NCBI GenBank assembly: GCA_009840385.1 | Contig: VXNX01000013.1 | Coordinates: 1-64,000 of the forward strand | Length of the DNA stretch: 64,000 bases | Origin: Candidatus Dadabacteria bacterium | GTDB lineage: Bacteria; Desulfobacterota_D; UBA1144; Nemesobacterales; Nemesobacteraceae | Reading direction: 5' to 3' | Shown here: one piece after another, positions 51,597-54,252 of the stretch | How the letters are laid out: every line of letters starts with the position of its first letter | How positions within the stretch are numbered: the first letter of the stretch is position 1 | Made by a program: the position numbers and the translations under genes | Notes under the pieces: generated by a model | What the model saw: the letters and a program-made list of their open reading frames with translations, nothing else | Databases searched by the model: none | Told to the model about the DNA's origin: nothing

Positions 51597-52061
51597 GTGA
51601 GAATATCGGAATGCCTGGAGAAAAATTCCGTATTTCCCGAACTCGTTTCGACAACAAAACCGGACGTGCTGAAGGAAATCTCAGAGAAAGTCGCAGGGGC
51701 CGTCCCCAGGCTTAACGTGCAGAGACTTAACGAAACTCTTGCCGAACGGGAGGGAATATGCAGCACAGCGATTGATTCCGGGGTAGCAATTCCGCACGTA
51801 AAACTCCTCGACATTCCAGATATAACCATCGCATTTGCCAGAAGCGAGGCCGGGGTTGATTTTGACTCGCTTGACGGAGAGAGGACCCATCTCTTCGCTG
51901 TTTTAATAACCCCAGAGAACTGCCCCATGGAAACCCGGGTAAAACTGCTTGCCCGGTTATCCCGTATACTCGGGCAAAATGACTTGAGGCCAAAACTCGT
52001 TGCCTCAAAAGAGGCTTCTGAGATTTATAATCTGCTTATTGAAGAAGATGAAAAGCTCTGA
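51597..52061 (+). CDS. ptsN: PTS IIA-like nitrogen-regulatory protein
   Basis: EIIA-Ntr receives phosphate from NPr/HPr and regulates potassium uptake, nitrogen and stress responses. The 154-residue product has the phosphorylated histidine in GICSTAIDSGVAIPHVKL and the usual alpha/beta fold. The start is GTG at 51597 with only a weak upstream purine stretch. The hprK start lies 14 bases inside its 3' end, so translation is coupled. Confidence 0.94.
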   Translation: MRISECLEKNSVFPELVSTTKPDVLKEISEKVAGAVPRLNVQRLNETLAEREGICSTAIDSGVAIPHVKLLDIPDITIAFARSEAGVDFDSLDGERTHLFAVLITPENCPMETRVKLLARLSRILGQNDLRPKLVASKEASEIYNLLIEEDEKL

Positions 52062-52467
52062 AAATAATCACTCCCTCTCGGTTGGGGATTTTTACGGAAA
52101 GTTCGGAGAAAAGCTCTGCCTTGATCCCGTCCACGGGGAAAGGGGGTTTGAAAGACGCATAATTTCGCCGAGCGCCAAAAAGCCGGGACTGAGAATGATT
52201 GAAAAGAAAATAGAGCTCGAGGAGGGAAACATACAGGTACTCGGCAGAACTGAAATCTCCTACATAAACGGATTCCCCGACAGAACACAGAAAAAGATAA
52301 TAACGAATCTTCTGTCAAACGATATTCCGTGCTTTATACTCTCAAAGGGAGCCCGCCCGGATAAATCCTTTGCCGAACACTTTGAAAGAAAACAGATACC
52401 GCTTTTCACCACTACCCTGGGCACGGGTAAATTCATAACCATTTTAAATGAGCTTCTCACCGAGTAA
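52048..52467 (+). CDS. hprK: HPr kinase/phosphorylase, N-terminal domain (frame ends at in-frame TAA)
   Basis: These 139 residues match the N-terminal (MurF-like) domain of HprK, with SVGDFYGKFGEKLCLD, GRTEISYINGFP and the typical hand-over ERKQIPLFTTTLGTGKFITIL (quoted in part). The frame then meets TAA at 52465-52467. Reading through it in the same frame gives FATRITVHGVLLDVHHMGVLILG, the normal continuation of HprK. The whole locus is thus a full-length hprK (309 sense codons) with a single nonsense codon at the domain junction. It may be a real split, a recent mutation, or a sequence error. Confidence 0.8.
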   Translation: MKSSENNHSLSVGDFYGKFGEKLCLDPVHGERGFERRIISPSAKKPGLRMIEKKIELEEGNIQVLGRTEISYINGFPDRTQKKIITNLLSNDIPCFILSKGARPDKSFAEHFERKQIPLFTTTLGTGKFITILNELLTE

Positions 52468-52506
52468 TTCGCGACCCGGATAACAGTTCACGGAGTACTG
52501 CTGGAT

Positions 52507-52977
52507 GTGCATCATATGGGAGTTCTTATCCTCGGGAAAAGCGGAATCGGGAAAAGCGAATGCGCTATTGACCTTATAATACAAGGTTCCAAGCTTATCG
52601 CGGACGACGTGGTTGAGATAAGAAAGATAGGCTCTCAGACACTTGTCGGAGTGGGTCCTGAGAACATAAGATATCTTCTGGAGGTAAGGGGGATAGGCAT
52701 AGTGAACATAAAGGATCTTTTCGGAACCACCTGCGTTATGGAAAAAAGAGAAATCGACATGGTCATAGAACTTCACAAGTGGGACTCCGAGACGGAATAC
52801 GATCGTCTTGGCGTGGACACGAAAACATACTCCATACTCGACATCGAACTGCCGTACATGGTACTGCCGGTGAGCCCGGGAAGGAACATGGCGTCGGTAA
52901 TAGACGTGGCAGTGCGAAGCCATATACTTAAGGACACCGGTAAAAGTATCGAGATTCCCTCCGGCACTCGGAAATAA
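52507..52977 (+). CDS. hprK: HPr kinase/phosphorylase, C-terminal catalytic domain
   Basis: This part holds the catalytic machinery. It has Walker A GVLILGKSGIGKSECAID, the DDVVEIRK segment, the RGIGIVNIKDLFG signature and the C-terminal helices ending at SHILKDTGKSIEIP. I give the first plausible restart, GTG at 52507, with GGAG (52492-52495) 11 bases upstream; CTG at 52501 is an alternative. HprK kinase domains from other bacteria are reported to work without the N-terminal domain, so activity is plausible. The stop overlaps the rapZ ATG by one base. No HPr gene lies in the window. Confidence 0.8.
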   Translation: MHHMGVLILGKSGIGKSECAIDLIIQGSKLIADDVVEIRKIGSQTLVGVGPENIRYLLEVRGIGIVNIKDLFGTTCVMEKREIDMVIELHKWDSETEYDRLGVDTKTYSILDIELPYMVLPVSPGRNMASVIDVAVRSHILKDTGKSIEIPSGTRK

Positions 52978-53834
52978 TGGAGCAGATAATAATATTAAGC
53001 GGACTCTCCGGTTCGGGGAAAAGTACCGCGGCGAAAGTGCTTGAAGACCTGGGCTTTTTCTGCGTCGACAACCTGCCTCCCGAGCTTCTTTTCTCTTTTA
53101 TCGACCTTTGCGGAAAATCCCTTACGCAGATAAAAAAAGCGGTCGTAGTAATTGACATACGTATACCGGTAAAAGATGCGCTTCATGACTTCGAAGAGGT
53201 GCTGGGAAAAATAAGAGAGTCGGCCAAAGAAGTCGACCTCGTATTTCTTGAATGCTCCGATGAGACAATTGTTAAAAGGTATAAGGAGACAAGGAGAATC
53301 CACCCGCTTGGAAATGAGAGAACTCTCCCCGAGGGAATATCAGAGGAGAAGCAAATTCTTGAAGACATACGCGAACTCTCGAACCATCGCATAGACACAA
53401 GCGCTCTCAGCATTCACGATCTAAAAGCGGTCATAGCCAAGATTGCCGGGACAACTGACAAAAGCACCCCCCTTCTTACCTTCCTTTCCTTCGGCTACAA
53501 GTACGGAATTCCCGAAGATGCAGACCTGGTTTTTGACGTTCGCTTCTTGAGAAATCCTCATTTTACCGAATCCCTGAGGGATTTAGACGGAACAAGGAGC
53601 GAAATCGTTGATTTTGTCATGTCGGATAAAGCTTCACAGGAGTTCCTGGAGAAACTCTGCGCTTTTCTGCGCTTTTTGATTCCCAAATATTCCGAGGAAG
53701 GGAAATCATATCTTACCTTGGCGGTTGGCTGCACCGGGGGAAAACATCGGTCGGTAGTTATAGCCGATGCCTTGGGCAAAAACCTCTCCGAACACTCTGC
53801 GATTATTAGACACAGGGATATAAATAAGCTATAA
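52977..53834 (+). CDS. rapZ: RNase adapter RapZ / YvcJ family nucleotide-binding protein
   Basis: RapZ binds nucleotides and, in enterobacteria, presents small RNAs to RNase E to control glmS. The 285-residue product has Walker A LSGLSGSGKSTAAKVLED, CVDNLPPELL, Walker B-like VDLVFLECSD and the C-terminal DVRFLRNPHF and GCTGGKHRSV motifs. It is directly coupled to hprK. glmS is elsewhere in this window, but no small RNA of the GlmZ type was seen, so that mode of control is not implied. Confidence 0.95.
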   Translation: MEQIIILSGLSGSGKSTAAKVLEDLGFFCVDNLPPELLFSFIDLCGKSLTQIKKAVVVIDIRIPVKDALHDFEEVLGKIRESAKEVDLVFLECSDETIVKRYKETRRIHPLGNERTLPEGISEEKQILEDIRELSNHRIDTSALSIHDLKAVIAKIAGTTDKSTPLLTFLSFGYKYGIPEDADLVFDVRFLRNPHFTESLRDLDGTRSEIVDFVMSDKASQEFLEKLCAFLRFLIPKYSEEGKSYLTLAVGCTGGKHRSVVIADALGKNLSEHSAIIRHRDINKL

Positions 53835-53841
53835 AAATCCT

Positions 53842-54252
53842 ATGTTTTCCATAGTAGTGATCACGCACGGAGAGCTCGCAAAAGAGCTTATATCAGCCGT
53901 GAACTTCATCCTGCCCGAGAAACCTAGGGTCAAGATGACTGCGGTCTCAATAGACGCTTCAAAAGACTCAAAAGATTTCGAAAAAAAGGTGCGGGCTTCA
54001 ATTGATACCGTTGACGAGGGAGGCGGAATACTGCTTGTAACTGATATGTTCGGAGGAACCCCTTCCAATATAAGCCTTATGTTTCTTGAGAGCGGCGAAA
54101 TGGAGGTAATTTCAGGGGTAAACCTGCCTATGCTCCTAAAACTAGGCACTGTTAAGGAAGAAACTACTCTCAAAGAAGCTGTGGACCTCGCGGCCAAGGC
54201 GGGAAGAGATAACATAATAGTGGCAAGTGAACTTCTTAATAAAAACGGTTAG
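53842..54252 (+). CDS. PTS EIIA component, mannose family
   Basis: The 136-residue protein has the phosphorylated histidine in VVITHGELAKEL and the VTDMFGGTPSNI motif of the mannose-class EIIA (PF03610-type). No EIIB, EIIC or EIID genes adjoin it, so it is probably regulatory, in keeping with the ptsN-hprK-rapZ neighbours. It begins 7 bases after rapZ with no good Shine-Dalgarno, which suggests coupled translation. Confidence 0.92.
   Translation: MFSIVVITHGELAKELISAVNFILPEKPRVKMTAVSIDASKDSKDFEKKVRASIDTVDEGGGILLVTDMFGGTPSNISLMFLESGEMEVISGVNLPMLLKLGTVKEETTLKEAVDLAAKAGRDNIIVASELLNKNG

Follow-up and report, generated by a model that had tools for sequence, protein, structure and literature searches.

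The window we analysed, 64,000 nucleotides of a Dadabacteria contig, carries hprK in the gene order rpoN-hpf-ptsN-hprK-rapZ-manX (Table 1). The genome is 1.66 Mb in size and of the sponge type of Dadabacteria, and the best of its named matches come from metagenome-assembled genomes of Dadabacteria, whose catalytic domain is 86-95 percent identical. The hprK frame (52048-52977) reads as 139 amino acids, a TAA at 52465-52467, a further 169 amino acids in the same frame and a final TAA, the last base of which is used by the ATG of rapZ. An earlier note on this DNA had described a single stop inside an otherwise intact hprK, placed at its domain junction, and both observations hold up. The first part matches Hpr_kinase_N (Pfam PF02603, E 1.7e-24, 86.6 bits, residues 20-137), which spans 52108-52458, and the second matches Hpr_kinase_C (Pfam PF07475, E 3.4e-60, 202.9 bits, residues 1-159). 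The second part also matches the solved HprK structures 1ko7, 1jb1, 2qmh, 1knx and 3tqf, and its P-loop GKSGIGKSE and signature LEVRGIGIVNI are unbroken. In domains, domain order and gene neighbourhood the locus is like that of the full-length two-domain HprK/P (PF02603 plus PF07475) of its congeners and of Firmicutes. It differs in that codon 140 is TAA and not Glu, so that both domains are there but the single uninterrupted frame joining them is not. No second hprK was found in the genome, and the gene is thus single-copy.

Table 1. Features of the hprK region in window coordinates.
Feature	Position	Strand	Remarks
ptsN (EIIA-Ntr type)	51597..52061	+	upstream, overlaps hprK start; PF00359, E 6.5e-24
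5' part of hprK, N-terminal domain	52048..52467	+	139 codons, ends at premature TAA; aligns end to end with congeners
premature TAA in hprK	52465..52467	+	Glu140 (GAA/GAG) in 13/13 congeners; one G-to-T change from GAA
3' part of hprK, catalytic domain	52468..52977	+	same frame as 5' part; Hpr_kinase_C match
GGAG, claimed ribosome-binding site	52492..52495	+	11 nt upstream of GTG; in CAC-GGA-GTA = His148-Gly149-Val150; in 13/13 congeners
hypothetical restart ORF from GTG (Val154)	52507..52977	+	156 aa; without strand betaA and His-Gly motif
rapZ	52977..53834	+	downstream, intact; PF03668/PF22740
manX-like EIIA (fructose/mannose family)	53842..54252	+	intact; PF03610, E 3.2e-22

The substrate of the kinase is encoded in the same genome. 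HPr lies at C13:236971 and has the sequence GLHARAA and a Ser46-type motif, GKSILGV, which contains the regulatory serine. EI is present as well, ptsN and manX adjoin hprK, and a search of the window genome for the EIIC family PF02378 found none; taken together the gene set looks like that of a regulatory PTS. HPr has therefore been kept while its kinase has lost its reading frame. In another genome of the same order (G015, 88 percent complete) HPr is present and hprK was undetected, a weak hint that the order may already include a case in which the kinase was lost and HPr retained.

Codon 140 in the genus and the age of the stop

Our comparison used 13 other species of the genus, each represented by one genome. 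In all of them hprK is uninterrupted, and it aligns without gaps to the window frame at 82-92 percent identity. Codon 140 always encodes Glu, as GAA in 10 species and GAG in 3, and the flanking residues (LAE-E-FATRITVHGVLLDV) do not vary among the 13. The history of the stop would most simply be one G-to-T change from GAA, confined to the window genome. A sense codon in the close relatives and a stop in one lineage is the pattern of a nonsense pseudogene, and the window gene shares with recent bacterial pseudogenes made by nonsense point mutation a single-lineage stop, sense codons in the relatives, an otherwise unchanged frame and a single copy.

These results narrow the four options that the earlier note had left open: a true split enzyme, a recent nonsense mutation, stop-codon readthrough and an assembly error. 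The note had named a stop conserved in sister genomes as support for a split, and none of the 13 congeners has such a stop. A long-standing functional split would need the stop to be shared by relatives, and since all 13 lack it, a split conserved across the genus is ruled out by their uninterrupted frames. Nonsense mutation and assembly error remain, and the former is favoured for reasons given below.

Programmed readthrough of the stop, which would yield full-length HprK, is in keeping with a frame that remains open, and under constraint, both before and after the TAA. It would however call for a stop conserved in relatives with an open frame beyond it, and this stop occurs in one genome only; a conserved recoding signal is not expected where the relatives lack the stop. 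TAA is also an ordinary stop in this genome, ending both hprK and rapZ, and local RNA folds are no better than those of shuffled sequences. Nothing points to readthrough, and we regard it as extremely improbable.

The selective constraint on the frame may say something of the age of the stop. On the terminal branch of the window genome, dN/dS is 0.16 for the N-terminal and 0.10 for the catalytic domain of hprK, compared to 0.13 for ptsN and 0.10 for rapZ (all three-point branch estimates), and the values for congeners are similar. Because hprK resembles both its flanks and its congeners, the stop should be young relative to the branch, or else an error. An unrelaxed frame of this kind would fit a recent mutation, an error or a still-working product just as well. 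Beyond the stop itself the frame shows no decay. A few replacements fall at sites that are otherwise invariant among the congeners: A138T beside the stop, and N151S, Q152H, E156D and K160S (numbered within the catalytic part) in the C-terminal tail (AVRSHILKDTGKS vs AVRNQILKETGKK). These five changes are possibly a sign of slight relaxation, with which they are compatible without proving it.

The position of the stop, neat as it looks, is only mildly unlikely by chance. In the hprK of one congener 92 of the 309 codons can turn into a stop, by 102 single-base paths, and 2 of these paths (about 2 percent, a figure reckoned after the fact) lie within codons 136-144.

Assembly quality around hprK

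The main competitor to a real mutation is an error of sequencing or assembly, or a minor-strain base that entered the consensus of this metagenome-derived genome, in which case the real hprK would be intact. In favour of such an error, a single base separates TAA from GAA, constraint on the remainder of the frame is normal, and every congener has the gene intact. To set against this we have the state of the surrounding assembly. Genes that are intact in two congeners were compared over 244 kb of the window's contig. About 161 of them (some 60,000 codons) were found in the window genome, and a real internal stop was present in hprK alone, with no frameshift-type split among them. Looser first surveys were noisy, giving many flags from shadow ORFs such as one inside era, and the filtered survey left only hprK; general decay or an error-prone assembly can thus be rejected. 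Two other flags of the survey sit at the extreme 5' ends of genes. One of these, at mqnC (G000:C13:240757-241959), lies upstream of the true start: the congener ORFs run upstream of the likely start and the stops of the window genome fall in that stretch, so that the apparent interruption of mqnC was rejected as an effect of annotated starts.

The number of ways to make a stop also bears on the error reading. Of the 2781 paths by which a random substitution can change hprK, 102 (about 3.7 percent) produce one, and a single chance nonsense error would imply about 27 substitution errors in the coding sequence of hprK, which seems high for an assembly that is free of frameshift errors. As the 244 kb around the stop are otherwise clean, we favour a recent nonsense mutation over an error, which we consider unlikely though still to be reckoned with.

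Putative restart signals and natural short HprKs

Another reading is that the two parts make a two-piece enzyme, in which the N-terminal domain ends at the TAA and a restart at the GTG (or at an ATG at 52516) gives a catalytic-only kinase like that of alphaproteobacteria. The catalytic half is indeed unbroken in sequence, and such domains can work alone. Some HprKs, in alphaproteobacteria and Coxiella, consist of the catalytic domain only (PMC2405797). The claim of the earlier note that the C-terminal domain alone can be a kinase is supported by the Brucella catalytic-only HprK, which is a functional kinase, and by the artificially truncated L. casei enzyme, which keeps its activities without its first 127 residues (PMC2937029).

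The same has come about within the class of the window genome. Catalytic-only HprK occurs there in two separate lineages, in all 14 genomes of one family (f8) and in 4 of the 7 genomes of one genus (g10), and the tree requires two changes for the loss of the N-terminal domain. The short hprK sits directly after ptsN in both (L132-L140 in the family, L128-L131 in the genus) and no N-terminal domain was found elsewhere in these short-hprK genomes, which argues that the domain was lost and not split off. In the 1-Mb genomes of the family the cluster reads rpoN-ptsN-hprK-manX, with hpf and rapZ unmatched between them at the sensitivity used. Apparent stops inside hprK in three of the family's genomes (G046, G051 and G052) are not interruptions; there the matches extend upstream beyond the point where the short HprK starts. 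Together with the alphaproteobacterial and Coxiella (3tqf) proteins, these lineages show the N-terminal domain to be dispensable in nature.

They also show what a working short form keeps. All 13 natural short HprKs that we read start 7-17 residues ahead of the His-Gly motif. The Dadabacteria proteins have their start ahead of the betaA/His-Gly strand, and no N-domain ORF precedes them, whereas the window genome has its N-terminal domain intact and every in-frame ATG, GTG or TTG after the stop falls downstream of the motif. The product from Val154 would begin 9 residues ahead of the P-loop and would lack both betaA and the window's His148 and Gly149, which are the equivalents of His140 and Gly141. 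Numbered as in E. faecalis, betaA (135-140) makes contact with HPr and His140 belongs to the active site (PMC9399212), and ATP binding is affected when Gly140 is mutated in M. pneumoniae (PMC11204831). A restart in the window would therefore not keep what the natural short forms keep.

The earlier note had also pointed to a GTG with an upstream GGAG as a possible restart. Both are present, but as codons of conserved residues that all 13 congeners carry without having the stop, and hence tell us nothing about restart. A stop and restart conserved together in relatives, as a split enzyme would have, are absent, the stop being common to no congener. A separate N-domain gene or split HprK was found in none of 61 genomes, where two fragments in G042 are cut by contig ends. 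Folding of the junction RNA was no better than that of shuffled sequences (z -0.19) and gave no recoding structure, and a search for a promoter of the 3' half returned weak consensus matches only. On this evidence we think a two-piece enzyme quite improbable. A related reading takes the window species as a first step from the two-domain to the catalytic-only form, with weak restart or low-level readthrough keeping enough kinase. We hold this to be very improbable; if true, it would be a point on the route that two Dadabacteria lineages completed by deletion of the N-terminal domain.

A probable recent nonsense mutation and its meaning

The reading that we favour, and find reasonably likely, is a recent nonsense mutation in a single-copy hprK. 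The genus would have had an ancestral full-length hprK, and the lineage of the window would recently have acquired a nonsense change at Glu140, most simply GAA to TAA. Translation should then end after the N-terminal domain. This domain of HprK has no defined activity. The catalytic half would probably be made little or not at all, and any product of internal restart would be without betaA and the active-site His-Gly. With a stop after the N-terminal domain, a catalytic half that is little made and a restart product so shortened, the sole HprK is probably inactive. In that case phosphorylation of HPr at the regulatory serine would cease, while genes for the EI-HPr-EIIA phosphorelay remain.

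As it stands, the finding is either another regulatory gene with a recent interruption, in a symbiont lineage that is uncultured, or an error of a single base, and in either case it is ordinary. It does offer a caution, in that a stop lying neatly between two domains and followed by GGAG and GTG is no evidence of a split enzyme when these signals are codons in every relative. If the mutation is real, control through P-Ser-HPr would have been lost naturally in this species, whose genome retains EI and HPr and gave no match to the EIIC family PF02378.
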